Positions 2,107 through 36,105 of a stretch of 64,000 bases of DNA are shown here, piece after piece (within the stretch, counting starts at the first letter, position 1; every line of letters starts with the position of its first letter). The notes under the pieces were generated by a model. That model was not told the origin of the DNA. It saw only the letters and a list, made by a program, of their open reading frames with translations, and ran no database searches. Location of the stretch: contig NZ_JACBAZ010000004.1 in assembly GCF_013391475.1 (NCBI RefSeq), positions 496,001-560,000 on the forward strand. The letters run 5' to 3'. The translations under genes were made by a program, and so were the position numbers. The DNA is from Oceaniferula marina. GTDB lineage: Bacteria; Verrucomicrobiota; Verrucomicrobiia; Verrucomicrobiales; Akkermansiaceae.

Positions 2107-2317
2107 CCGGACAAGAGGATAAGCTACTGACCATTTAGAAAGCTCTCCTCGAAACTCGGAGACGACCCTTCATCCGGATTTACCGGAATGACCGACACCC
2201 GTCCTGGCATTTGTTTAATTAATTCCACAAGATTTAACCCCTGGACGGCCGAGTGCCCCACATGGAAAATCATTTTTTCTCTTCGACTCCCACCCGAATA
2301 TAACGCATCTTGCCTGC

Positions 2318-4111
2318 ATGAAGTCGTTCATTACTTTTATTTTTTCTCTCAGCTTGCTGCTTGCCCATGCGGATGAGAAAAAAGCAATCGTCGCCGTCTA
2401 TGATCTGGAAGGAAACATCACCGAAAGCGGCCAGGGAAGTGGCGGACTGTTCGGGCTGGGAGGCGACGGCCGCCGACCACTGACCCATTTCGACCTTGTC
2501 CGCAGCATGAAACAAGCCGCAGAAGACGAACGCGTCAAAGGCGTTGTGCTCGACCTCGGAGGTGCCGGACTCAGCCTGGCACAGCTTCAGGAAATACACC
2601 GCTGCCTGCAGAGCATCCGAAAAGCTGGTAAAGACGTCTGGTTCTACACCGAAAGCTTAAACAACGGCACCGCCCTCATCGGCGCGGCAGCCAACCACTT
2701 CACCCTGCTACCGGAAGGCAACGTCATGCTCACCGGTATGTATTCCGAATCGATGTATTTCAAAGGCCTACTCGACAAAGTGGGAGTCAAAGCCGAGGTC
2801 ATCCACATCGGTGACTTTAAAAGTGCTGGCGAAACTTTCTACCGGACCGGCCCCAGCGAGTATGCCCAAAAACAATCCGACCTTCTCTTCGATTCCATCT
2901 ACGGTCAAATCCTCGGCACCCTGAGCCAAGGCCGAAAAATCAAAGCGAAGGAGCTTCAACAACTCATCGACCAAGGGCTCATTAGCCCGCAACAAGCGAA
3001 AGAAGTGGGCCTCGTCGATGCGTTGAAGTACCGGACCGATTTTGTTAGTGGCATCCGTGCCCACTATGGTGAAGGCACCAGCTTCGACCGCACATACGCC
3101 CTCCCCGATCTCGATGGACCGGACATCAACAGCTTTATGGATGTCATGAAACTCGCCTTCCAATCCGGCAAGTCCAAAAAGCGCCGCAAAGACTACCTCG
3201 CCGTCGTTGCCCTGGAAGGCAACATCACCGACGCTTCGGTCGCTCCCGTCCGCAAGGAGGTTCTCAAACTCGCCAAAGATGACAAATGCCTCGGACTGGT
3301 TCTCCGGGTCAATTCCCCCGGAGGGTCCGCCCTCGCCAGCGACGTGCTCTGGGAGGCCACCGATGAGTTTAAAGCCAGCAACAAACCCTTCGTCGTTTCC
3401 ATGGGAGCCGTGGCCGCATCCGGAGGCTACTACGTCAGTGCCGGAGCCGACCACATATTCGCCGAAACGGGAACCATCACCGGATCCATCGGCGTGGTCG
3501 GCATGAAATTCGTGCTCGGAGGCGCGATGGAAAAACTGGGTATCACCGTGCATACCAGCCAACGCGGAAAGAATGCGGGGCTGATGAACATGCACCGCCC
3601 CTACACACCCGAAGAAACCACCATCATCCGCAAATCCATGCTCGACGTCTACGCCACCTTTAAAAAACGGATCACCGACGGCCGGGGTGACCGCATCGTC
3701 GGAGACCTGGAACAACTCGCCGGCGGGAGAGTTTATTCAGGCCAGGACGCACTGAAAATCGGTCTGATCGATAAGATCGGAGGGCTCAATGAAGCCATCG
3801 CCCATGTGGCAACCTTGGCTGAACTCGAACCAGACAGCTACGACGTCCACCTCACCCCGGCTCCGAAAAGCGGGATTGAGGGCATGTTTGCCGGACCGGA
3901 AAAACCGGACAAAGATGGAGAGTTCATTCAGGCAGGCCATGCACAGCGTCCGGCCAACCTTCTCCAGCAACAAATCATGAACTCTCCCAGCCTGCAAATG
4001 CTGACGGTGGACCAACGGCAGTCGCTTGAGCAATTCATCAAGCGGATTCAAGCCTACTCAGAGCATCACATCCTCCTCATCGGGCAAGATTTCACCATCC
4101 CCACGCTCTAA
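2318..4111 (+). CDS. sppA: Signal peptide peptidase SppA, 67K type (S49 family)
   Basis: The 597-residue protein matches the two-domain, roughly 67-kDa form of SppA, an envelope serine protease that cleaves remnant signal peptides. An N-terminal hydrophobic signal or anchor occupies residues 3-17. The first S49-like half contains DFKSAGETFYRTGPS, in the place of the catalytic Lys of the dimeric enzyme. The second half holds VNSPGGSALASD and AVAASGGYYVSAGAD, the latter with the nucleophilic Ser of the GASGGYY-type motif. GTITGSIGVVG is also typical. The ATG at 2318 is chosen because the signal peptide follows directly. Upstream is the divergent exbB; downstream, 30 bases away, is a small membrane protein that may be cotranscribed. 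Confidence 0.94.
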   Translation: MKSFITFIFSLSLLLAHADEKKAIVAVYDLEGNITESGQGSGGLFGLGGDGRRPLTHFDLVRSMKQAAEDERVKGVVLDLGGAGLSLAQLQEIHRCLQSIRKAGKDVWFYTESLNNGTALIGAAANHFTLLPEGNVMLTGMYSESMYFKGLLDKVGVKAEVIHIGDFKSAGETFYRTGPSEYAQKQSDLLFDSIYGQILGTLSQGRKIKAKELQQLIDQGLISPQQAKEVGLVDALKYRTDFVSGIRAHYGEGTSFDRTYALPDLDGPDINSFMDVMKLAFQSGKSKKRRKDYLAVVALEGNITDASVAPVRKEVLKLAKDDKCLGLVLRVNSPGGSALASDVLWEATDEFKASNKPFVVSMGAVAASGGYYVSAGADHIFAETGTITGSIGVVGMKFVLGGAMEKLGITVHTSQRGKNAGLMNMHRPYTPEETTIIRKSMLDVYATFKKRITDGRGDRIVGDLEQLAGGRVYSGQDALKIGLIDKIGGLNEAIAHVATLAELEPDSYDVHLTPAPKSGIEGMFAGPEKPDKDGEFIQAGHAQRPANLLQQQIMNSPSLQMLTVDQRQSLEQFIKRIQAYSEHHILLIGQDFTIPTL

Positions 4112-19729: not shown

Positions 19730-22288
19730 CTATTTCATCGAAGCAAGGTATTCGACCAAATCACTGAATTGTTTAAGCGTCAGATCATTGACCAAGCCTG
19801 GCCCCATCAACGTAGAGGTTTGCTTTTGAATGCTTTTCACCTCCGAGGCCTTGAGGGTCGTGGCAATCCCAGCGATGTTGTGAACCACCACCTTCTCCGA
19901 GGTTTTCTCAACGAGCGTCCCCAGATGTTGCGCTCCATTGTTCATCGTCACGCTCACCCAGGATTCCGCAATCGTAGCATCGGGTTTGAGAATCGACTCG
20001 GCTATCTGCTCCCGGTTCATGACCTTTCCAAGGCTCAACAAATCAGGCCCCTTGATTACATCTCCCGCTTTGATGTTATGGCAAGCCACACAACTCAGAG
20101 ACGACAATACTTTCTGCCCCCGCTTCTTGTTTCCCTTGTGCTTACCCAGAGCGAGCATCACGTCCTCGATCGATGTTCTTCCGACCTCCCCTTTCGATCC
20201 TTTTCCGGACTTCTTGGCCACCTCTACTTTTCCAATTCCTTCCAAATTCATACGGTGTCGGTTCGCCACAGCAGTTAAAAACGAATTCTGACCAGCATCC
20301 GCGGCAGCCCATTCCTTACGGAACACCTGCTCGATTTTTTCCGATTCACTCCATTGAACCGGCACATAATACGGCCCTCGTGTATCGGGTCGGGTTCCCC
20401 ACCACCAGGAGCCGTCGTAATCCGCCTCCTTGTGATAAAGGCGCCCGAGAGACGTCAATAAATCACGCCGCAGACCAGCGTCTTTTGTTTGATCTAATTT
20501 TTTCAAAAGCCCGCTGACGACCTCGGGTTCGTGCATCCAGCGCAATGCCCACAAAGCACCACCTCGGCTTGTTCCATCCAAGGCTTGCAAACAAGCATCC
20601 ACGGCTTGAAGTCGAATCAAAGCCTGCACAGCAACGTGGGGAACAAGAACTGCCGCATGAGGCGTTGCGTGAGGGCCTCCTTGGTGACCTTTTTGTTTCG
20701 ATGGTGGAGCAGGTGCTGGAGGGACGGCCACTGCCAAAAGCTGATGCGCTACCGACGGTTGACCGATGCGACCCAAGGCAACTGCAGACGCCAGCTGAAC
20801 CCGTGGGTTCTGATCCTTCAGCCCCGCGAAAAAGGGATCAAGAGGCAAGCCGGACACATAAGGCAATCGATCTGCAGCGGCTCTCAGAGCCCACTCACGA
20901 AGCTCAGGCGTCTCGGCCAAACCAAGCAGACCAGCTTGCGCATCATCTCCTAACATTTGCGCGTAAGTAAAGAGTGCCGCCACGCGGGATTCCAATGAGC
21001 AGGATGCGTCGCCCGCTATTTTCAAAATCTGGGGAGCCAGACTTTTTGAGCGTGCTAACAACTCCTGTTGAACATGCAATCTGACCGTCGCACTTTCAGA
21101 CTTCAGACCTTTCATCAAGGCCGTGTCGGACAATTTTTCCAAGTGGGGAAAAGCAACATACTTCCAAGCTTTCGGCACCACACGTTGGATGTATCCCTTA
21201 CGGGCATTACCCTTGTATCCCGCACCTTCCCAGGCCGCGAGGTATAGCCGACCGGAACCATCCACATCCACATCGGTCAGCTGGGAACAGGAAATGAACT
21301 TTTCCTGCTGCTGGGTAAAGGAAGCTCCATCTTTTTGGAGACGGTGGATAAACAGTTGGTTGCGGCCCCAGTCCCCCATCATCGGCACATTATTGTATGC
21401 CTTTGGCCACCCCGGCTCCTGCAAAAACAAACTCCCGGTTCCCGATCCACCTCCGAGGTCGGCGAGAGCCGGGATGATTTCGTCGGTGAAATGCTTGTAT
21501 AGGACCGGATAACCATACTGCCCCGACTGGATATGATGAATAAAGCGGACATTCCAGCCACCACCATCATTGGTATTACCACGGGTGTAGATATTCATAA
21601 ACGGATCAATCGCCACATCATAAATATTCCGCAGGCCATGCGTATACATCTCCATCTCCGTACCATCGGGCCGGACACGTAACACTCCGCCTCCCAGTTG
21701 GGTCAGCTTTTTACCATCCGCCCCCTCAGCATCAACAAAACCATAATCGCCCACCGCAATGTAAATCCAACCATCGATCCCCATCCGAATCCCATTGGTG
21801 GTATGGTCCGCACCGCGTGATTGGTTATGCTTCAAAGTAGATACATTTTTAATCAATCGCTTACCCGGGCCATCAGCGACACCATCCTGATCAAGGTCCT
21901 CAAACACACTTAAATGCATTCCACTGACCACCCCGGTCGACTCAGGAATCTCGGTGTGCAGCACAAAAAGCCGGCGCCCAACGGCCATCAAACCCCTTGG
22001 ATTCCCAAGCTCAACAAAAACCGACGATGTGTCTGCCTGACCATCACCATTGGTATCCACCAGCTTCACCACCCTGCCTTTGCCTGCACCTTTCCCCAAT
22101 GACCCATTCATATCCACCCCAACGTAAACGTCTCCATTCGGGGCCGCACTTAAACAGGACGGGCTGGGAGTCAAACGGTGGTCAGCAAAACGAGTCGATT
22201 GAAACCCTTCCGGCATGGCCGAAAGTATTCCGGGAAGAACCGATCCAAAAACGACTGAACATAGAAGGGAAAAACGCAAAGAAGACAT
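19730..22288 (-). CDS. PVC-type membrane-bound dehydrogenase: beta-propeller, HEAT repeats, c-type haem domain
   Basis: The 852-residue secreted protein has a signal peptide (MSSLRFSLLCSVVFGSVLPG) and a six-bladed propeller of the PQQ-sugar-dehydrogenase/NHL type (about residues 25-375; DGWIYIAVGDYGFVDAEGA, then GTEMEMYTHGLRNIYDVAID). An alpha-helical HEAT-like region (about 390-620) and a C-terminal cytochrome c domain (about 725-852) follow, with the haem site CVACH (SLSCVACHNIKAGDVIKG) and candidate axial Met. This modular type is a hallmark of Planctomycetes and Verrucomicrobia and is thought to oxidise sugars or alcohols in the periplasm. Start at ATG 22288, where the signal peptide begins; the upstream in-frame extension is discounted. 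Confidence 0.92.
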   Translation of the reverse strand: MSSLRFSLLCSVVFGSVLPGILSAMPEGFQSTRFADHRLTPSPSCLSAAPNGDVYVGVDMNGSLGKGAGKGRVVKLVDTNGDGQADTSSVFVELGNPRGLMAVGRRLFVLHTEIPESTGVVSGMHLSVFEDLDQDGVADGPGKRLIKNVSTLKHNQSRGADHTTNGIRMGIDGWIYIAVGDYGFVDAEGADGKKLTQLGGGVLRVRPDGTEMEMYTHGLRNIYDVAIDPFMNIYTRGNTNDGGGWNVRFIHHIQSGQYGYPVLYKHFTDEIIPALADLGGGSGTGSLFLQEPGWPKAYNNVPMMGDWGRNQLFIHRLQKDGASFTQQQEKFISCSQLTDVDVDGSGRLYLAAWEGAGYKGNARKGYIQRVVPKAWKYVAFPHLEKLSDTALMKGLKSESATVRLHVQQELLARSKSLAPQILKIAGDASCSLESRVAALFTYAQMLGDDAQAGLLGLAETPELREWALRAAADRLPYVSGLPLDPFFAGLKDQNPRVQLASAVALGRIGQPSVAHQLLAVAVPPAPAPPSKQKGHQGGPHATPHAAVLVPHVAVQALIRLQAVDACLQALDGTSRGGALWALRWMHEPEVVSGLLKKLDQTKDAGLRRDLLTSLGRLYHKEADYDGSWWWGTRPDTRGPYYVPVQWSESEKIEQVFRKEWAAADAGQNSFLTAVANRHRMNLEGIGKVEVAKKSGKGSKGEVGRTSIEDVMLALGKHKGNKKRGQKVLSSLSCVACHNIKAGDVIKGPDLLSLGKVMNREQIAESILKPDATIAESWVSVTMNNGAQHLGTLVEKTSEKVVVHNIAGIATTLKASEVKSIQKQTSTLMGPGLVNDLTLKQFSDLVEYLASMK

Positions 22289-22398
22289 AAAACACTGAGG
22301 GTTGAGGCACAATACAATACATTGCGCCAAATGATTTCGATTCTACATCGCCACCTCCCTCAATCTTTCAATCATCCTCGATACTGACACGCCCATGA

Positions 22399-24099
22399 TC
22401 AAACCCGCTCCAAGAGAACAGCGCTCAATCCCATTTCAAAATCCTGGCTCACCTCCACGCCTTTGGCCAAAATTTGGATCGAATAATAGCCGGGTTTGGG
22501 CTCATCAATTTTCAACGGAATTTTCACCACCCCCAATGACCGTTTATCCACTTGATAACGATCAACCTGATCCTCCAGATCCTTGTGCGTCGCACGAATT
22601 TCAAGGGCCAGGTCACAATGGTTTTGGATCATGTACAAGGTCACCAACAAGCTCCCGCTGTGGCCTTCAGGGATGCGCAAATCCACTCTCCATCCCTCAC
22701 CCTCTTTAGCTCCACCCACCTTCGAACCCATAACCGCCCGCTGAGGAGTAATGGTGGTTCCACCGGCCTGATAAATCACCGATGTTTCCGAACGGATGAA
22801 CTCAGAGAATTCGCCTATGGCGAGAATGTTTCGAATATAGGATCCTCCATCTTTCAACATACGGGCAGACGACGCCGGTATTCCTGTGACAACTGTCCAG
22901 TCCAGGGTATTCGAACCATCAAACTGAATCTTTACCGGCTTGCTCTTTGTCAGTAGTTCGCCAATCAAATGCGTTGGTTGAAGTTGCACTAATGTGGGGT
23001 CCGCTTTTCCACGACCTAAATCTGCCTCTTCAGGTTCATCCGGGCGGAAAATCAAAATCAAGATCAAGACCAATAAAAGAACAATCACCACTCCCACCGC
23101 AGCCAGCAACATCTTGCCCTCTTTGTTCATCGGCTTTGAAGCGCCCAGAGCCTTCTTTGGTTTCTTGGCTTTCTTTTTCGATTTTTTTGATGACTCAGCC
23201 GACACGGTCACCGGCTCGGATATCTTTGGCTGCATCGGATCCGGCTGCTCGGGCACATCGACCGCCTGAGTGACACCAGGCACATTCGGTGCCGGGGCCT
23301 TCAGAGTAATCGCATGCAAGGCCTCCATCGCCTCCTTACTGGATGCCGGCCGCTGATCCTTGGGGCCTGCTACCAGCCACATCACCCAATCGGCAAAATC
23401 CTGCTGAACACCTTGCACATAAGTGCTCAGATGCGGCAATCCACCATCTTGGTATGCCTGGGCACACTCCTCGTGGGTCTTACCCGCGTATGGGTGGCCA
23501 CCCACGAGTGCAATGTAACAAAGCTGCCCAAGGGTGAAGAGATCCGACTGCCCGTCCGGCTGACTTTTTCCATCCCCCAATTCGGGAGCCATCAATACCG
23601 GATCAGCCATGATGACATGCGTTCCACAAATCATCGCCGATATGCGATCCAAACCAAAATCGACAATCAAGTACCGGTGCCCGCCGCGAACCCGGGCCAG
23701 ACGCTTTACCGAATCCGTGCGTAACGCCCCGTGAAACAGCCCGGATGAATGCGCCGCATGCAAGGCATCCAGCAAATCAACCGCCATGTTATGCACCCCG
23801 ACCTGATTCAGCGCCCCCTGCGCAAGGCGGTCAGCCAATGACTCCCCCTCAATAAACTGGGTCACCATGTAGTATCCATCCTCATTTTTGGCGATATCGT
23901 AAATCGTCAGTAGATTCGGATGCTGCAAGGCACATAGTTTTCCCGTGTATTGCGAAAACTCCTCCGGGCGCTCTTTCCCTTCAACCTGCTCAAAATCACG
24001 ATACACAACCCTACGCTGCAAGGTCGTATCCTGCGCCAAATACACTGAGCCAAGTTGGTCTTTTTCAAGTAAATCGATGGTCTGATAGCGCTCAGTCAT
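22399..24099 (-). CDS. Receptor-like Ser/Thr pseudokinase A
   Basis: The 566-residue protein has a protein-kinase fold domain (about residues 5-265), a Lys-rich linker, one transmembrane helix (about 330-356, LLAAVGVVIVLLLVLILILI) and an extracytoplasmic domain of about 200 residues. Kinase landmarks are altered: the ATP-anchoring Lys of subdomain II is Arg34 (VVYRDF), and the catalytic loop HRDLKxxN reads H123-G-A-L-R-T-D-S, so the catalytic Asp is Ala125. DFG (D147) and APE (171-173) are kept. It is therefore predicted to be catalytically dead and to act by binding. It is collinear with the next gene (positions 1-150 without gaps). The extracytoplasmic domain is beta-rich and unrecognised. 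Confidence 0.9.
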   Translation of the reverse strand: MTERYQTIDLLEKDQLGSVYLAQDTTLQRRVVYRDFEQVEGKERPEEFSQYTGKLCALQHPNLLTIYDIAKNEDGYYMVTQFIEGESLADRLAQGALNQVGVHNMAVDLLDALHAAHSSGLFHGALRTDSVKRLARVRGGHRYLIVDFGLDRISAMICGTHVIMADPVLMAPELGDGKSQPDGQSDLFTLGQLCYIALVGGHPYAGKTHEECAQAYQDGGLPHLSTYVQGVQQDFADWVMWLVAGPKDQRPASSKEAMEALHAITLKAPAPNVPGVTQAVDVPEQPDPMQPKISEPVTVSAESSKKSKKKAKKPKKALGASKPMNKEGKMLLAAVGVVIVLLLVLILILIFRPDEPEEADLGRGKADPTLVQLQPTHLIGELLTKSKPVKIQFDGSNTLDWTVVTGIPASSARMLKDGGSYIRNILAIGEFSEFIRSETSVIYQAGGTTITPQRAVMGSKVGGAKEGEGWRVDLRIPEGHSGSLLVTLYMIQNHCDLALEIRATHKDLEDQVDRYQVDKRSLGVVKIPLKIDEPKPGYYSIQILAKGVEVSQDFEMGLSAVLLERV

Positions 24100-24172
24100 A
24101 ATTCAATGGTGTGTACCCGTGAGGATGATTTTTTCAGCGAATACCTGCGAACGCTAGCAAACATCCTATAGG

Positions 24173-24185
24173 ATAGCACGCTCGA
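24173..24185 (-). promoter_or_regulatory. Upstream motif of pseudokinase A shared with pseudokinase B
   Basis: On the minus strand the sequence TCGAGCGTGCTAT lies 74-86 bases upstream of the ATG. An almost identical TCGGGCGTGCTAT lies 68-80 bases upstream of the paralogous gene, while the rest of the leaders differ. GTGCTAT could be part of an extended -10 element, or the word an activator site. Confidence 0.45.
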
Positions 24186-24335
24186 AAATAAAGAATTCTC
24201 ACATCCATCCAGCCTTGACGACCAGGCATCTCGCAATCCCTCACCACCAAGCAAACCAAGCAATTTCCAGACCAGCGAGAAAGAAAATGTCCTCCCTCCC
24301 CAGGGTTCCTACATTAGAGAGATTATCTCGGTGAC

Positions 24336-24466
24336 GCCTGCGGCGCTGACAGGATTGCCAGGATTTTCATTTTCAAATGATCAAAGTTTGCTCAAAATCT
24401 ATCGCTACCTTCTAAAAAATTCTGTAAATCCTCTTCAATCATGTGAATCCTGTCAGCGCCGCAGGC
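24336..24466. repeat. Palindromic element with perfect 21-bp inverted ends
   Basis: The ends 24336-24356 and 24446-24466 are exact inverted copies (GCCTGCGGCGCTGACAGG plus ATT). Just inside each end is a degenerate repetition of CAGGATT-type words, including GCCAGGATTTTCA on the left and AATCCTCTTCAATC on the right. The spacer is AT-rich. This resembles REP or MITE-like extragenic elements rather than a terminator. Confidence 0.85.
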
Positions 24467-24518
24467 TGTTAGCCCGTGGTGTATGCACACTGCCTCCCCC
24501 CCAAGTCGCAAAAAACGA

Positions 24519-26249
24519 CTAGTACTTCTGTATTTGAATCGCCTGTAAGCCCATACTGAAGTCCCGACTGGAATCCTCGGATTTGGCCGACACCTTAATG
24601 GCATAAAAACCTCCGGCCTGAGGCGAACGAATCACCATCGGAACCTTAAACACCCCGGGCGTCCCAGCGGTCATTCTCAGTTTTTCAGGTGCATCCTGCC
24701 CCGGTAATTTTACCTCAAACTCATAATCACAACGGTCTTGGATTAAATAAAAAGTGACGAGCACTGGCCCCTGATGCTTTTTGGGCACCCTCAACATCGT
24801 CTGCCACCCATGCCCGTAGTTAGCCAAGCCCCGCACCGAGTCCGTCATCGCGCCCTGCGGCTGATGCTCCATGCCATTCCCTTCATACCGAACCAACGCC
24901 GACGGCATCTGAAATTGATCATAATCTCCACTGGTAAACAAACTAGCCAGGAACGTTCCATCCTGATGATCCAGACGCTCAGACGAAACAGGCGCGCCGG
25001 TCACCAGCGTCCAATCCAATACCTCGCCACCATCCAGCACCACTTTCGGTAAAGTATCATCCGGCTTCAAACCACATAAACGAGACGCGTCCAACAAAAA
25101 GACCGGGCCATCACCCATCACCCGCTCACGACCGTCGCCTCCGTCCGACGCATCCCCATTTCCCCGGGTCAGCATACTCACCCCAATCACGAGAATCAGA
25201 CAAAGCAATGCCGCCCCTGCTCCCATCATCACACGGGTCTGCTTAGGCATCGCCATCAATTTCTCTTTTATCCCTCCACTCTTGGGTGAAATGGCCTGCC
25301 CGGGTGATGGCTCAGGTGGAACTTCTGAAGCCATGGCCTGAGTCTGGTTTGCAGCCACCGCTTGAGCCTGAATTCCGGACTGGGGAACGACTGCGGGAGG
25401 CGCAACCTCGGCAACCGCCTGAGTCATTCCCGGAATCGTCGATGCAGGAGCGTTGACGGTGATCTCATGCAAGCCGATCATGGCGGCCTCTGCCGATTCT
25501 GGTCGGTCGGCAGGATCTGCGGCTACCATCCGCATAATCCAATCGGCAAAATCCTGTTGGAGTTCGGGAGCATACTGTTTCACGTCGGGCATACCTCCTT
25601 GCTGATACGCCTGGATGTATTCATCCACTGTATTCCCAGACATGGGGTGCCCCCCGGCAACCGCGATATAACACAACTGCCCAAGAGCAAATAAATCACC
25701 TTGCTCGTTCGGCTTGGCGCCTTCCAAAAGTTCCGGCGCGCTCAATTCCAAATCGGACGATACATCATCCCGGCCACCCAACATCGCCGATAGGGTATCC
25801 AACCCCAAGTCCCCAACCAAATAGCGATGCCCACCACGAACCCGGTCAATTCTGCTCACAGAGTCCGAACGCAAGGCTCCGTGAATGAGACCTACAGAAT
25901 GAATCGCATGCAAGGCATCCAATAAATCCGATGCCATATTAAAAACGCCCGTCACACTCAAACTCCCCCGCTTCAGGCGATCCACCAAAGCCTCAGAATC
26001 CACATATTGAGTCACCATGTAATACCCTTCATCATTGTGATCGATATCATAAATCGTCAATAGATTCGGGTGCTGCAGGGCACACAACTTGCCGGTAAAA
26101 GAAGCAAAATGTTCAGGCAAGCTCTCAGCGGACTGGCTCTCAAATTTCCTAAAAACCACCTTGCGCTGCAAGGTCACATCAAGGGCCATATAAACATCTC
26201 CGAGACGATCTTTCTCGAGAAGACTGGTGATTTCGTAACGATTGGACAT
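24519..26249 (-). CDS. Receptor-like Ser/Thr pseudokinase B
   Basis: The 576-residue paralogue of pseudokinase A has the same order: kinase-like domain (about 5-265), Pro/Gln/Ala-rich linker, one helix (about 345-366, VMMGAGAALLCLILVIGVSM) and a C-terminal extracytoplasmic beta-rich domain. Shared stretches include TGKLCALQHPNLLTIYDI and SVxRxxRVRGGHRYL. It is even more degraded: subdomain II Lys is Arg34, the catalytic loop is H123-G-A-L-R-S-D-S and DFG has become D147-L-G. The extracytoplasmic domains end similarly (GFYAIKVSAKSEDSSRDFSMG compared with YYSIQILAKG in A). A role as a non-enzymatic sensor or scaffold is inferred. Confidence 0.9.
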   Translation of the reverse strand: MSNRYEITSLLEKDRLGDVYMALDVTLQRKVVFRKFESQSAESLPEHFASFTGKLCALQHPNLLTIYDIDHNDEGYYMVTQYVDSEALVDRLKRGSLSVTGVFNMASDLLDALHAIHSVGLIHGALRSDSVSRIDRVRGGHRYLVGDLGLDTLSAMLGGRDDVSSDLELSAPELLEGAKPNEQGDLFALGQLCYIAVAGGHPMSGNTVDEYIQAYQQGGMPDVKQYAPELQQDFADWIMRMVAADPADRPESAEAAMIGLHEITVNAPASTIPGMTQAVAEVAPPAVVPQSGIQAQAVAANQTQAMASEVPPEPSPGQAISPKSGGIKEKLMAMPKQTRVMMGAGAALLCLILVIGVSMLTRGNGDASDGGDGRERVMGDGPVFLLDASRLCGLKPDDTLPKVVLDGGEVLDWTLVTGAPVSSERLDHQDGTFLASLFTSGDYDQFQMPSALVRYEGNGMEHQPQGAMTDSVRGLANYGHGWQTMLRVPKKHQGPVLVTFYLIQDRCDYEFEVKLPGQDAPEKLRMTAGTPGVFKVPMVIRSPQAGGFYAIKVSAKSEDSSRDFSMGLQAIQIQKY

Positions 26250-30802: not shown

Positions 30803-32128
30803 ATGCAAACCAAGGATGGACATACCCTTCCAAAAACGCCCCACTGCCAACGTTTTTTGTGGCAATGGCTTGCCCTGATTGGAGTCCTCCTGATCACATC
30901 CTCGACGCTGCAGGGACAAATCACGGAAATCGAGGCAAAACATCAAAAAAACCTCAAGGACTTTTCCCCCATTGAGGTGCTGCCACGCTTTGGAGAAGGC
31001 AGAGGGTGCGCATGGATTTCCAACGACCCTGGAACCCTCTTCGACAGCTCAGAAAACCCCATCTTCCAAGGTGCTGTCATCTATGGTAACCCACACTGGC
31101 AATACGCCCATGTCAGCGGAACCGACGCACTGGGAAACGACTTCAACGGTCATGAATCCATCCTGCGCCGCTTCGAGCTCGGTGTTCGCCTCCACTTCTT
31201 AAACTATTTCACCGCATCGATCTCAACAGATGTGGAAGACGACGGCAAAGCTAAGGACGACAACAGCTACGACTCCCTTGACTACGCTCTTTACTCATCC
31301 GATATCATCTTTGATGCCCAAGATGCCTTCAACTGGGAATGTTACGATCAATTCCAACTTCGACTCGGCTATTTTAAAGTCCCCTCCAATGCAGGGTGGG
31401 CCACATCGTCCAACTCCATGCGAGCCATCGAACGAGCGTCCCTATCCAACTACTCAAGCCCGTCCGACTCTCTGGGAGCGATGATTTCGGCACGACGAGG
31501 ACGCTGGGACTTCGATCTCGGAATCTTTTCAGGAGATGAAATTGATAATGGATTCGATTCTGAACGAGGTAGCTTCTGGCTCGGCCACATCGGCTATATG
31601 TTTGGAAAACGGGAACGCCTCGACAGTCTGCGAACCGACCTCCGGGTGCTGGTGAGTAACGCCCCCGAAAAAGGAGAAACCTTCCAGCAAGACTGGGTTG
31701 TCTCATGGAGCACCGTCATGCGTCGCCAGCACTGGCGGATGATGAGCGACTTCATTATCGGCGAGAACGGGGACCACAACACCCCCTCGCAAAATGGCAC
31801 CTACTGGGGAATCAATATCATGCCCAGTGTCTGGCTGCTCGAGGACCGGCTTGAGGCCATCTTCCGCTACCAATACGTCGAGGCCGATCGACGGAACGGC
31901 TTTCGAGTTTCCTCTCACTCGATCCGGCGCATCGCGGATCAGGAGGGAGCGTTCATCAACGATGGCTATGGCGACAAGCACCAAAGCCTCTACGCAGGAC
32001 TCAATTACTACATCTGTGGTGATAACACAAAAATCATGGCCGGCGTGCAATGGGACGACCTAACGTCCAGAAACAAACAGGTATTCGAAGGCCTGAGCAC
32101 CTGGTTCGCCGTCCGGCTCTATTTTTAA
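30803..32128 (+). CDS. OprP/OprO-type porin, copy 1
   Basis: The 441-residue predicted outer-membrane beta-barrel has a long N-terminal leader with a hydrophobic signal (about residues 19-38, FLWQWLALIGVLLITSSTLQG) and a short N-terminal region. A barrel follows whose motifs recur in the next three genes: WISNDPGTLFDSSENPIFQG, the basic RRFELGVRLHFLNYFTASIS, ERASLSNYSS, FWLGHIGYMFG, LEAIFRYQYVEADRRNGFRV and YAGLNYYICGDNTKIMAGVQ. It ends in aromatic-X-Phe (VRLYF), a BAM-recognition type terminus. The family is the phosphate-selective porin O and P group; substrate unknown. The signal part is the most diverged of the four. Confidence 0.86.
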   Translation: MQTKDGHTLPKTPHCQRFLWQWLALIGVLLITSSTLQGQITEIEAKHQKNLKDFSPIEVLPRFGEGRGCAWISNDPGTLFDSSENPIFQGAVIYGNPHWQYAHVSGTDALGNDFNGHESILRRFELGVRLHFLNYFTASISTDVEDDGKAKDDNSYDSLDYALYSSDIIFDAQDAFNWECYDQFQLRLGYFKVPSNAGWATSSNSMRAIERASLSNYSSPSDSLGAMISARRGRWDFDLGIFSGDEIDNGFDSERGSFWLGHIGYMFGKRERLDSLRTDLRVLVSNAPEKGETFQQDWVVSWSTVMRRQHWRMMSDFIIGENGDHNTPSQNGTYWGINIMPSVWLLEDRLEAIFRYQYVEADRRNGFRVSSHSIRRIADQEGAFINDGYGDKHQSLYAGLNYYICGDNTKIMAGVQWDDLTSRNKQVFEGLSTWFAVRLYF

Positions 32129-32160
32129 CCCCGCTCAAATCCGAACCCATACATGAATCC

Positions 32161-33498
32161 ATGATACCTAGACCGATCCGTAAACATTCAGCCCCCACCC
32201 TCATCACCCTAACAACCCTAGCAACCCTCGGACTATCTCCTTCGTCCAGTTTTGCAGGAACCGAAGCCAAGTCCGTTCTCGAAGAACCCGCTCCCTGGAA
32301 CTGGTGCACCTGGCTCCAAGACGACCCTGGCACACTCTACAAAAATAAGAGCAACCCCTACGTCCAGGAACTTAAAATCTACGGCCGATTCCAATGGCAA
32401 TATGCTTACGTCGACGGTGAAGGTTCCTTCGAGGGTGGAACCCGCGATTTTAACTACGACACCGAAGAAATCCGCCGTTTCCGTGTCGGGGCAAAAATGA
32501 AATTTCTCGATTACTTCAGTGTCCACGCCCGGGCCAACTTTGAAAACGACCTTTCTCCCATCGGCGGCTCACGAGACATCGAATACTTCAACCTCTACAC
32601 TTCGACCCTCGATATTGACCTCCAGAAAGCCTTCGATTTAGACACTCTCGAAGAATTGGAAATCTCAATCGGCAAACAGAAGGTTTCCAACAGCGCCGAA
32701 AAGTATATTTCATCACGCTACATCAAAACCGTCGAACGATCATCCCTGAGTAACTACGTCACCGTCCCGACATCCACAGGCGTCTCACTTTCCACAGCCT
32801 TCGACGCCTGGAACATCAGCCTGGGTATGTATTCCGGTGATCTGGAACAGGAGTTCTCCAAATTCGATAACGACTACTTTTACACCCTGCACACCGGCTA
32901 CAAATTTGAGGACCCTCGTTTCGCGGATAAATCCCGAATTGATTTCCGCTTCATCCTCAATGGTGACGAAGAGGAAAATGCCGTCAAAAACCTGGAGAGC
33001 ATCGGCTCGTTCAACCAAAAATGGGTCGCCTCCCTGAGTTCCAAATCCAAATGGGGCAAATTGCGTCTGCTCACCGACCTGGTTTACGGTGACAACGGAA
33101 CCAACTACGATATCGACAACAAAGGCCGCCCTGAAAACAACCCGGAACGGGAAGGCACCTTCTGGGGCTTTGTCCTTCTACCGACTTACTGGATCCTCGA
33201 CGACCAACTGGAAGCCGTCTTCCGTTACCAGTATGCCTCTGCCAGTGAAGAAGAAGGCTTCCGTATTTCCAGCCGCTACTCACGCACCGCTGGCAATGCT
33301 TACGACTTCACCGGACCCAACGACATGTCCAACGGTCGCGGTGACAGCCACCACAGCGCTTATCTCGGATTAAACTACTACCTCTGCGGCGACAACGCAA
33401 AGATCATGGCTGGGGTCGAATACGATGATTTGGACTCTGGCTCCCAGGACGTCTACGAGGGCACCACCATCTGGACGGCCTTCCGCATGTATTTCTAA
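32161..33498 (+). CDS. OprP/OprO-type porin, copy 2
   Basis: The 445-residue barrel protein has a signal peptide (about 1-32, ending SSFAGTEAKS). The start at ATG 32161 is chosen for the signal; the longer frame overlaps copy 1. Diagnostic segments are CTWLQDDPGTLYKNKSNPYV, RRFRVGAKMKFLDYFSVHAR, TVERSSLSNYVTVP, LEAVFRYQYASASEEEGFRI and YLGLNYYLCGDNAKIMAGVE. It ends FRMYF. It starts 32 bases after copy 1, so they are probably one transcript, and a terminator follows. Confidence 0.88.
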   Translation: MIPRPIRKHSAPTLITLTTLATLGLSPSSSFAGTEAKSVLEEPAPWNWCTWLQDDPGTLYKNKSNPYVQELKIYGRFQWQYAYVDGEGSFEGGTRDFNYDTEEIRRFRVGAKMKFLDYFSVHARANFENDLSPIGGSRDIEYFNLYTSTLDIDLQKAFDLDTLEELEISIGKQKVSNSAEKYISSRYIKTVERSSLSNYVTVPTSTGVSLSTAFDAWNISLGMYSGDLEQEFSKFDNDYFYTLHTGYKFEDPRFADKSRIDFRFILNGDEEENAVKNLESIGSFNQKWVASLSSKSKWGKLRLLTDLVYGDNGTNYDIDNKGRPENNPEREGTFWGFVLLPTYWILDDQLEAVFRYQYASASEEEGFRISSRYSRTAGNAYDFTGPNDMSNGRGDSHHSAYLGLNYYLCGDNAKIMAGVEYDDLDSGSQDVYEGTTIWTAFRMYF

Positions 33499-33523
33499 CG
33501 TCCATCCGACCCGTTTCAAACCA

Positions 33524-33566
33524 CCCGAACCCTGAATCTGCCAACGCAGGTTCGGGGTTTCTTCTT
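33524..33566 (+). terminator. Probable terminator between porin copies 2 and 3
   Basis: CCCGAAC(C)CTG pairs with CAGGTTCGGG with a one-base bulge and a 13-base loop, followed by GTTTCTTCTTTT. The interrupted T tract suggests partial read-through. Confidence 0.6.
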
Positions 33567-33635
33567 TTCATCGCACTCAATTCTGCTACTTCAGCCTCCA
33601 CGCGGGCATTTTTTCCCCGCTCCAACAAGTAACCT

Positions 33636-34913
33636 ATGATTATGAACAACGAAACCAACGTTGCCAGTATCCGCCCACTCCGTGGTGTCGCTCTGGCCCT
33701 TGCGATCACATCCGCTTCTGCTCTTGCAGGAACCTCTGCAAAATCGACCATCGTCGAATCACCGGAACCTGAAAAGGGGTTCTGTGACTGGCTCAGCAAT
33801 AAACCCGGAACCCTCTACAAAAACAAAGAGAACCCCTACATCCAGGAACTCGGTATTTTTGGCCGCTTCCACTACCAACATGCGTGGATAGACGGATCCT
33901 CCGACGGCAAAGACTTCTGGTATGACAACGAAGGTGACTTCCGTCGAGCCCGCCTCGGAGCCCGTGCCAAATTCCTGAACTACTTCCACATCTGGGCCAA
34001 TGCCGACATGGTCCGCGATACCCGCCCAGCCGGGGGCGACGCCGATTGGGATTACCACAACCTCTACGAAGCCAAGTTCCTCTTCGATGCCCAAAAAGCC
34101 TTCGACATCGACAACCACAGCCGCTTCACCCTTGGCTACGGAAAGTCCGAGGTCAAAACCGCCTACGAATCCCAAACCTCATCCAAGAAAATCAAAACGG
34201 TTGAGCGTTCCGCCATCTCCAACAAGATATTCCAAACGACCCTAACCGGAGCGTGGCTTGATGCTTGTGCTGGCAACTGGTCCTACTACGGTGGCGTTTT
34301 TAGCACGGCCTGGGACGAAGAAATCGCATCTTGGAATGCTGGCGAACTCTATCACGCCCGACTCGCCTACGACACCAGCGATTGCCTTTCACTGGAACAA
34401 TCCGAACTCAGCGCCGCTTTTGCCTATGCTGACAACGATGATTTCGACGGCATCAGCTTGAATTACGAATGGGCGGGAGCGCTTGCATTTACAGCCGAAC
34501 AAGGCCGGGCCAACTACATGGCCAACCTGATCTTCGGAGAGAACCGTGACGATGCCCTCGATGATCGCGGCGGAAGCTTTTGGGGGGTTGTTTTCATGCC
34601 CAGCTACTGGCTCATCGACAACGACCTTGAGGCGGTCTTCCGCTACCAATACCAAGCTGCAAGCGAAGACAAAGGCATTCGCATCAACAGCCGCTATGCC
34701 CGTACAGCAGGGGCCGTTGAGCAAGAGGACATCTCCCTCTTGAGAGGTGGCCGGGGAGACCAACACCACAGTGCCTATCTCGGACTCAACTACTACTTCT
34801 GCGGTAACCATTCGAAAGTGATGGCTGGCGTAGAATACGACGATCTGGAATCCGACGGCGACGATATCTACCATGGATTCACCTACTTCCTTGCCTACCG
34901 TATGTATTTTTAG
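33636..34913 (+). CDS. OprP/OprO-type porin, copy 3
   Basis: The 425-residue barrel protein has a signal peptide (about 14-31, LRGVALALAITSASALAG) followed by TSAKSTIVESPEPEKG, matching copy 2 in layout. Diagnostic segments are LSNKPGTLYKNKENPYIQEL, RRARLGARAKFLNYFHIWAN, TVERSAISNKIFQT, LEAVFRYQYQAASEDKGIRI and YLGLNYYFCGNHSKVMAGVE. It ends YRMYF. Two close ATGs (33636 and 33642) are possible starts. It follows the partial terminator and probably has its own promoter within 33567-33635. Confidence 0.88.
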   Translation: MIMNNETNVASIRPLRGVALALAITSASALAGTSAKSTIVESPEPEKGFCDWLSNKPGTLYKNKENPYIQELGIFGRFHYQHAWIDGSSDGKDFWYDNEGDFRRARLGARAKFLNYFHIWANADMVRDTRPAGGDADWDYHNLYEAKFLFDAQKAFDIDNHSRFTLGYGKSEVKTAYESQTSSKKIKTVERSAISNKIFQTTLTGAWLDACAGNWSYYGGVFSTAWDEEIASWNAGELYHARLAYDTSDCLSLEQSELSAAFAYADNDDFDGISLNYEWAGALAFTAEQGRANYMANLIFGENRDDALDDRGGSFWGVVFMPSYWLIDNDLEAVFRYQYQAASEDKGIRINSRYARTAGAVEQEDISLLRGGRGDQHHSAYLGLNYYFCGNHSKVMAGVEYDDLESDGDDIYHGFTYFLAYRMYF

Positions 34914-34947
34914 TATTTCATAGGTGATTCTCACATCACCCGTAACG

Positions 34948-36105
34948 ATGAAATACCCAACCCTCTACTCCCTTTTTTTTACCTTCATCACCTGCTTTCC
35001 GCTCAGTGCCGGAGAGCAGGTGATTTTGTCTAAGCCTCCGGCAGACACCCCATCGTCTTTGGATCGCCTCTGGGGCTATGCCACGCTCTATCAAAACGAG
35101 AACAATCCGGTGATCCAAAAATTCGTCCTGAGTGGAAGATTGCATGCGGATGCCATCCGGTTCGATGAAGACCCGGGAAATTTCGAAGACATGCTCTGGC
35201 GACGATTCCGGTTCGGATTCAAATCCTCCTGGTTCGATCACTTCACCCTACAACTTGAGGCGGATATCGATCTCAACGACATGGATTCCGACGAGCTCGA
35301 CGACAGCTACAACCGGCTCACCGATGCATACATCGGCTGGTCACGCAGCAAAGCGTTGGCAATCAAACTCGGCAAACAATCCGCCGGCTTCACCCTGGAT
35401 GGTGCCACCTCATCCAAAAAACTGCTCACCCCGGAACGTAGCACTGTGGCGACCAACCTCTGGTTTCCCACCGAGTATTTCACCGGCATCTCCACCAAGG
35501 GAAGAATCGACCACTGGAGCTATCAAACCGGCGCCTTTTCATCCAGCGACGACGAGGAATTCGGCACCTTTGACAGCGGCTATTTCGGACTCATTTCGCT
35601 CGGATACGATTTCAAGCACCTCACCGGCTGTGACCGAAGCGAAGCCAGGATCGATTATGTTTACAACGACCCCGACTACGATGGCAATGTGGGAACCCGG
35701 GACCTCAGACAGGTCGTCAGCCTGAGCGCGTGGTGGGAAAACCAACGCGCTGGCATCGCCACAGGTTTATCCTTCGGTGATGGTATCGAAGGACAAAGCG
35801 ACCTGTATGGCTTGGAAATCATGCCCTACTATACCATCAATGACACATGGCAGTTGGTCTTCCGCTACACTTATGTTTACAGCCCGGATGACAACGGCGT
35901 GCGCCTCAACCGCTACGAAAGCCAAGTGGTTACCGGTCGCTGTAACGCCGCCCATGAATGGTTTCTCGGGATCAACACCTATTTCTACGGACACAAACTC
36001 AAATGGCAAAACGGGATCGAATACATCCACACCAATGATCGGGCCGACGATGGTGGCGAGTATTCGGGGTGGGGCCTCACCTCCGCCTTCCGGATGTATT
36101 TTTAA
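34948..36105 (+). CDS. OprP/OprO-type porin, copy 4
   Basis: The 385-residue barrel protein has a signal peptide (MKYPTLYSLFFTFITCFPLS, then AGEQV). It is the shortest and most divergent of the four but keeps RRFRFGFKSSWFDHFTLQLE, TPERSTVATNLWFPTEYFTG, LVFRYTYVYSPDDNGVRLN and a terminal FRMYF. The start at ATG 34948 is preferred over an in-frame GTG at 34924 because of the signal. It begins 34 bases after copy 3. A palindromic element directly follows the stop. Confidence 0.87.
   Translation: MKYPTLYSLFFTFITCFPLSAGEQVILSKPPADTPSSLDRLWGYATLYQNENNPVIQKFVLSGRLHADAIRFDEDPGNFEDMLWRRFRFGFKSSWFDHFTLQLEADIDLNDMDSDELDDSYNRLTDAYIGWSRSKALAIKLGKQSAGFTLDGATSSKKLLTPERSTVATNLWFPTEYFTGISTKGRIDHWSYQTGAFSSSDDEEFGTFDSGYFGLISLGYDFKHLTGCDRSEARIDYVYNDPDYDGNVGTRDLRQVVSLSAWWENQRAGIATGLSFGDGIEGQSDLYGLEIMPYYTINDTWQLVFRYTYVYSPDDNGVRLNRYESQVVTGRCNAAHEWFLGINTYFYGHKLKWQNGIEYIHTNDRADDGGEYSGWGLTSAFRMYF

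Follow-up and report, generated by a model that had tools for sequence, protein, structure and literature searches.

Two Tandem Receptor-like Pseudokinases of Oceaniferula marina Belong to a Clade Lacking the Catalytic Lysine and HRD Aspartate

A 64,000-nucleotide stretch of the Oceaniferula marina genome (Akkermansiaceae, Verrucomicrobiota; contig NZ_JACBAZ010000004.1, positions 496,001 to 560,000), hereafter called the window, carries two intact tandem genes on the minus strand that encode kinase-like membrane proteins, A (566 residues) and B (576 residues). Both are pseudokinases, a call that is safe on sequence, and they belong to a single clade of 37 inactive domains from three genera. 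The kinase domain of these proteins is under purifying selection. On balance, though with moderate confidence, we regard A and B as non-catalytic single-pass membrane receptors that act through a partner, most likely an active Hanks-type kinase.

Results

Catalytic Residues and Domain Architecture

The kinase domains of A and B were aligned, by sequence and by profile, with solved kinases, which located R34, HGA, and D147 at the places of the canonical Lys, HRD, and DFG-Asp, respectively. Both proteins have Arg34 at the β3 Lys position (codons at 23998..24000 in A and 26148..26150 in B) and H123-G124-A125-L126-R127 at the HRD position (HGA at 23725..23733 and 25875..25883), so that the catalytic Asp is replaced by Ala125. 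Residues 147–149 are DFG in A (23653..23661) and DLG in B (25803..25811), the Asp being kept in both. The initial annotation had reported these substitutions, and the alignments confirmed all of them; it had overlooked the replacement of the α-C Glu (Y51 in A, F51 in B), that of the catalytic-loop Asn by S130, and the loss of the first two glycines of the glycine-rich loop (G-loop). The landmarks that it had listed as remaining are indeed present, namely APE, a DLF(T/A)LGQLCY segment, and a later R-P, along with the α-F Asp and the α-I Arg. A pseudokinase is defined in a recent review by the loss of the β3 Lys, the HRD Asp, and/or the DFG Asp (PMC12599244). A and B have lost the first two and kept the third, which agrees with the pseudokinase identity originally assigned to them.

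The reading frames of A (22399..24099) and B (24519..26249) share one domain order: a Pkinase domain, a linker, one predicted transmembrane (TM) helix, and a C-terminal domain of approximately 200 residues. The Pfam Pkinase model (PF00069, cut-off 31.7 bits) matched residues 1–268 of A (23296..24099) with 62.2 bits and residues 1–268 of B (25446..26249) with 65.3 bits, identifying the protein kinase fold in each; the Pfam scan of A and B found no domain besides kinase models. There are 18 Pkinase matches in the genome. A hydropathy scan placed the TM helix at residues 329–351 of A (23047..23115), preceded by a Lys-rich stretch, and at residues 338–360 or so of B (25170..25238). The C-terminal domains (22402..23004 in A, which gave no Pfam or PDB sequence match, and 24522..25112 in B) are presumably extracytoplasmic. 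The two proteins are 43% identical over their full length, with 59% identity between the kinase domains (262 positions) and 34% between the C-terminal domains (196 positions), and they align without gaps through residue 177. The receptor-like architecture proposed earlier, with a gapless alignment to residue 150, a TM helix in each protein, and a conserved C-terminal domain, was thus borne out. An AlphaFold2 model of the whole protein was too poor for use, with a mean predicted local distance difference test score (pLDDT) of 38.9.

A Single Loss Shared by 37 Domains

A maximum-likelihood tree was constructed from 82 kinase domains with the catalytic columns removed; these rows were left of 131 profile hits after removal of duplicates and of hits covering fewer than 200 profile positions. 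The pseudokinase group was defined as lacking the β3 Lys and the letters HRD, which means that neither absence is an independent finding, and 42 controls were chosen for the presence of Lys and HRD, HSD, or HQD. Three loci (L008, L036, and L037) fell in neither group. The 37 pseudokinase domains, A and B included, formed one clade that contains no other row (support 100/99); according to a warning from the tree program, the basal rows with a laminin G (LamG) type ectodomain and the outgroup have long branches and may have been joined falsely. Inside this clade, A pairs with B as its sister (support 100/97), the branch of B being the longer one (0.68 vs. 0.21). This indicates that the catalytic loss predates the A/B duplication, as the initial annotation had supposed from the two copies, and on this sample inactivation predates the split of the three genera. 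A restriction of the changes to the A/B tandem was rejected because the wider clade shares them. The genome of the window holds at least four Pkinase matches of the clade: A, B, and those at C4:461 kb and C2:652 kb.

When the Lys, HRD, and DFG positions were tabulated, the Lys was lost in 37 of 37 clade domains, position 34 being Arg in 34, Phe in two, and His in one, and the DFG Asp was kept in 36. The group definition does not cover the HRD Asp, the α-C Glu, and the Asn, all three of which were lost in every one of the 37 domains, with Ser at the Asn position in 35. The controls have the Glu, the Asn, and DFG in 42 of 42 cases each. Among 26 TM-type domains (alignment A1), R34, H123, G124, S130, and D147 are invariant, and therefore the new motif itself is conserved.

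The profile of these 26 members was also searched against a sample of 386 genomes of the order, and a sample of 387 genomes of the phylum was searched in addition, with up to about six candidates scored per genome in each case. In the order, no match above 231 bits was found outside genera g1, g10, and g14 among the matches listed, and the 11 outside loci that were fetched all have K, E, HRD, N, and DFG. In the phylum (E up to 1e-50), eight outside loci were read, of which four have HRD, two HLD, one HSD, and one HKN. The last of these, L150 in genome G027, has Phe in place of the Lys and no α-C Glu, and represents another degenerate kinase.

Further kinase-like genes with unusual motifs were encountered in these genomes. 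L036 and L037 (genomes G007 and G003) make up a separate, second degenerate lineage with HQA and GFG, in which the Lys, Glu, and Asn are kept. L008, in the genome of the window (C1 near 945,000), has A at the Lys position together with HLD and DWG. In genus g10, five soluble pseudokinases of about 300 residues (L084, L086, L087, L089, and L090) lie near a member of one gene cluster, whose copy at L089 matches CvfB-like S1/winged-helix domains.

Erosion of the Nucleotide Pocket

The state of the nucleotide pocket varies within the clade. The 16 TM-type members of g10 and g14 all keep Gly14, Gly17, and the Ala of the VAxK motif, and 15 of them keep Gly12. In the 11 members of the type found in the window, Gly14 is replaced by Asp in 10, the VAxK Ala by Val, Met, or Asp in 10, and an aromatic residue occupies the α-C Glu position in all. 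These pocket positions are lost as well in the basal LamG-type rows, of which there are three. It thus looks, judging from the alignment, as if the loss of the catalytic residues is shared, and as if the blocking of the pocket is later and specific to the lineage of the window. Since A and B have lost G-loop glycines and the VAxK Ala too, we expect neither to bind ATP normally.

Selection on the Kinase Domain

The ratio of nonsynonymous to synonymous substitution rates (dN/dS) was estimated for six pairs by the Nei–Gojobori method (NG86); dS exceeded 1 throughout, and the values are therefore rough. For the kinase domain, dN/dS was 0.044 (L076/L077), 0.115 (L062/L063), and 0.142 (A/B), and the remaining three pairs were saturated. 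For the C-terminal 195 residues, it was 0.144 (L076/L077, which carry another ectodomain type), 0.221, 0.293, and 0.28, with two pairs saturated. The kinase domain is hence under purifying selection, and the Pro and Glu of APE, the α-F Asp, and the α-I Arg are kept in 11 of 11 members of the window's type. Selection for a retained fold, as suggested originally, is in line with both the low ratios and the motif invariant in 26 of 26 domains.

The C-Terminal Domain

An alignment of 14 members of the C-terminal domain, or ectodomain, gave no match to PDB sequences up to an E value of 1. Against Pfam, two families (best E 0.01 and 0.08) were hit, each by a single member of the 14, and these hits were taken as chance. 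Among 244 genomes of the family, 19 copies of this ectodomain were found in 13 genomes: 15 on pseudokinases, one on an intact kinase, and three stand-alone. The stand-alone copies are the neighboring genes L130, L132, and L133 in G022, which have no kinase domain and two of which start with a lipoprotein-like N-terminus. A match of the ectodomain profile in G385, to the C-terminus of a sulfatase (24 bits), was discarded as probably due to chance. Other members of the pseudokinase family carry a Laminin_G_3 ectodomain (four of eight scanned) or a third, unnamed type, or have no TM helix. When the three ectodomain types were compared profile against profile, no match was convincing (HHalign probability 11.9, 0.2, and 8.4%).

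A structural model of the C-terminal domain by itself shows a β-sandwich at low confidence (mean pLDDT 45.6; 54–68 per ten-residue block over residues 101–201). Of the earlier description of a conserved, β-rich domain, the conservation therefore stands, and the β-rich character is predicted by this low-confidence model. The model matched carbohydrate-binding modules, MAM domains, and the RetS sensor domain; matches of this strength may reflect no more than an arrangement common to β-sandwiches.

Copy Number and an Adjacent Intact Kinase

The ectodomain type occurs in nine of the 14 genomes of the window's genus and was not found in the other five, which are 76–92% complete. Seven of the nine carriers have one copy. 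In the genome of the window there are three, namely A, B, and a copy at another place on the contig, and G002 has two, one of which is on an intact kinase. Among the 19 copies in the 244 family genomes, A and B form the only neighboring pair of pseudokinases with this ectodomain; tandems at other loci involve other family members. The initial annotation had proposed a two-member sensor or scaffold system; a conserved two-gene system was accordingly rejected.

In G002 (contig C95, locus L068), a pseudokinase gene lies at 2126–3910 on the minus strand. Directly 3′ of it, and in the same orientation, is a frame of 607 residues (294–2114). This second protein retains K, E, HRD, N, and DFG; it also has a hydrophobic stretch and an ectodomain of the same type as the pseudokinase, the two ectodomains being 69% identical. 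Its kinase domain lies outside the pseudokinase clade and, among the 82 domains of the tree, is closest to that of L001 in the genome of the window (68%), which indicates a fusion of this ectodomain with an active kinase that is only distantly related. The pair offers the best hint that a pseudokinase and an active kinase answer the same signal.

Discussion

A Proposed Receptor Acting Through a Partner

The receptor reading is built on computed results: the residue losses and their single origin, the purifying selection on the kinase domain, the order of the domains, and the intact kinase adjacent in one relative. The topology, the ligand, the partner, and the direction of control are our proposals. 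A and B, having arisen by duplication inside a clade that lost its catalytic residues once, would be single-pass inner-membrane proteins, in which a TM helix connects an N-terminal cytoplasmic kinase fold, incapable of phosphate transfer, to a periplasmic domain at the C-terminus. The latter may bind a ligand, perhaps a carbohydrate-related one, and this binding would alter the oligomeric state or the conformation of the protein. The pseudokinase domain would then relay the change as an allosteric partner or scaffold of another protein that it binds, most likely an active Hanks-type kinase.

Several results weigh against this reading. No kinase adjoins A and B other than each other, and the case for an active-kinase partner comes from a single draft genome, in which contig C95 has an 80-base gap, located in the linker of the pseudokinase and not in the kinase gene. 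The pseudokinase domain evolves faster than an active relative, with a mean identity of 58% versus 84% over the same 21 genome pairs; the comparison covers seven of the nine carrier genomes, leaving out G002 and G012, and takes the best match per genome as the active relative, assumed to be orthologous. Across these pairs, the ectodomain has a mean identity of 31%. As for the sensor domain, the best Foldseek match of the low-confidence model was TmCBM61 (E 1.6e-4, TM 0.36), and the best VIA-align matches were MAM/meprin domains (Z 8.0), with many different β-sandwiches scoring alike (Z 7–8). Degenerate relatives that are not part of the tree vary more: the Lys is kept in L138, position 34 is His in L137, and the second frame at L139 is heavily degraded. 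Furthermore, L008 and L036/L037 are partly degenerate and lie outside the clade, and therefore loss occurred more than once in these genomes.

More speculatively, the family as a whole might sense periplasmic ligands through interchangeable ectodomains on a dead kinase, and assemble into mixed receptors together with those active Hanks kinases that bear the same ectodomain. It would then be an independently evolved counterpart of pseudokinase/kinase receptor pairs, a generalization that we consider rather doubtful. HER3/HER2-type pairs consist of inactive and active receptor kinases. If the two G002 genes work as a functional pair, the likeness would lie in one ectodomain type placed on both an inactive and an active receptor.

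Comparison with Known Kinases and Pseudokinases

The PASTA receptor kinases StkP and PknB resemble A and B in having an N-terminal Hanks fold, a linker, a single TM helix, and a C-terminal domain. StkP and PknB, along with 4eqm/9ymt, which we take to be PrkC, were the best PDB sequence matches. A and B are nevertheless distinct from PASTA kinases, since their Pfam scan gave no PASTA match and their catalytic residues are lost; the best NCBIfam match, the PASTA Ser/Thr kinase model NF033483, scored 104.3 bits for A and 93.6 bits for B, below its cut-off of 450.

Among 42 bacterial Ser/Thr kinase families, five consist wholly of pseudokinases and two are pseudokinase-rich, their functions being given as unknown (PMC12599244). 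The words “verruco”, “planctomyc”, and “HGA” do not occur in the main text of this review, and no receptor pseudokinase of Verrucomicrobiota or Planctomycetes appeared in the titles and abstract openings of open-licence literature among the matches listed. Compared by the review's descriptions, six of its seven pseudokinase families are excluded on the features tested (PMC12599244). ActPs2 shares the change of the β3 Lys to Arg with A and B; however, it has Asn in place of the HRD Asp, a mostly deleted DFG, large insertions, and a mainly actinobacterial distribution, whereas A and B have Ala for this Asp and keep DxG. The DYD pseudokinases are likewise membrane-associated, with Lys changed to Arg and no α-C Glu, but they have DYD for DFG and divergent ATP and metal motifs and occur in actinobacteria and firmicutes, while A and B have DFG or DLG and have lost the HRD Asp. 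The MviN pseudokinase (ActPs3) is a membrane protein with bulky aromatics in its pocket, comparable to the aromatic residue at the α-C Glu position of A and B, but has activation-loop deletions and Thr for Lys (PMC12599244). Such a deletion was not found here: from DFG to APE, the family profile and a solved active kinase differ by one single-residue gap, on the other side. CP1 and DLHK have no TM region, and CP1 carries COG3899, in contrast to the single TM helix and the sole kinase models of A and B; GLW replaces HRD in the GLW family, where A and B have HGA. The seventh family, ActPs1, is described with conserved domain deletions and divergence in all three motifs; the DFG Asp is kept in A and B, and ActPs1 is not counted among the six excluded families. 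EssB/YukC is also a membrane pseudokinase but has TRG at the place of DFG (PMC12599244).

Alternative Functions

EssB/YukC exemplifies an alternative that we regard as possible though less than probable, namely that A and B are scaffolds without a kinase partner, which recruit or stabilize other membrane machinery as this TM pseudokinase does in type VIIb secretion (PMC12599244), with the ectodomain as an anchor to periplasmic machinery. Consistent with it, no active kinase adjoins the window copies, and a gene for a PVC-type haem-binding/DUF7133 cytochrome c protein lies at the 3′ side of A (19730..22330, minus strand). Such a gene is found 3′ of the pseudokinase in six of 10 loci of the window's type (the window, L063, L013, L064, L065, and L066, but not L062, L067, L060, and L068), yet the genome of the window has only five open frames that match DUF7133. 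The genes of the window and L066 passed the DUF7133 cut-off, that of L063 fell just below it (24.7 vs. 27), and those of L013, L064, and L065 were assigned by BLAST cluster. This neighborhood could be explained simply by inherited gene order, however, and an input sensor accounts better for the several ectodomain types of the family and for the occurrence of the window's type on an intact kinase.

A nucleotide-binding switch, in which the pocket binds ATP or another nucleotide via R34 and D147 and signals its occupancy without catalysis, appears unlikely for A and B. The retention of D147 in all but one of the 37 domains and the preserved glycines and VAxK Ala of the 16 g10/g14 members speak for it, as do the DYD pseudokinases, which were modelled with ATP despite their Arg and missing α-C Glu (PMC12599244). 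In the window's type, however, the Asp at Gly14, the lost VAxK Ala, and the aromatic residue described above should hinder such binding.

It is very unlikely that the fold belongs to an unusual enzyme with a reaction of another kind in place of phosphotransfer, such as the AMPylation by SelO or the glutamylation by SidJ (PMC12599244). The nearly universal DFG Asp and the strict R34, H-G, and S130 would suit this idea, but SidJ uses a kept Lys and Asp (PMC12599244), and A and B are without the Lys, the α-C Glu, the HRD Asp, and the Asn. Finally, decaying remnants without function, to which one might ascribe the faster evolution (real nonetheless), the five genomes of the genus in which no copy was found, a stop inside the match of the relative G073:C36, and the members without an ectodomain, were rejected as extremely improbable on the kinase-domain dN/dS of 0.044–0.142 and the conservation of both the new motif and the structural residues.

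A receptor that acts through a partner remains the preferred reading of A and B, and the clade adds to the known pseudokinases a lineage of receptor type that shares one loss and has close active relatives as controls. Its nucleotide pockets grade naturally from intact to blocked, its ectodomains are of several types, and G002 supplies one natural graft of the ectodomain type of A and B onto an active kinase. With such matched pairs, the role of a bacterial pseudokinase receptor becomes directly testable.

Other Neighboring Genes and Repeats

One BLAST cluster of sulfatases adjoins the pseudokinase in five of the 10 loci of the window's type (L060, L062, L063, L013, and L067), of which the L063 gene was the one scanned against Pfam. 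This link was set aside, as the genomes have 9–85 sulfatase matches each and three of the five loci are probably one inherited arrangement. At L064 (8770–10332) and L065 (8982–10538), the gene adjoining the pseudokinase is weakly similar to the L067 sulfatase; the L064 gene gave no Pfam match, and the gene at these two loci may be a degenerate sulfatase. Genes for a Keto-disaccharide hydrolase and for GFO/IDH/MocA proteins occur near L061, L064, L065, and L066 (assigned by cluster, with members of L061 and L064 scanned), but they are common as well, with 14 hydrolase match rows in the genome of the window, and were likewise set aside. Because the sulfatase and keto-sugar neighbors are common in these genomes, the carbohydrate-related nature of the ligand is kept as a guess.

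The 419-base gap between A and B contains a dispersed repeat (24336–24466) with inverted arms of 30 nucleotides that are 90% complementary. A DNA search of the genome with this repeat gave 73 match rows, 35 of them, itself included, at an E value of 2.1e-31 or better. Protein families of PVC type point by themselves to a PVC-group host, probably of the Verrucomicrobiota. Elsewhere in the window, positions 30803–36105 contain four tandem homologous genes, and the two that were scanned match phosphate-selective porin O/P.

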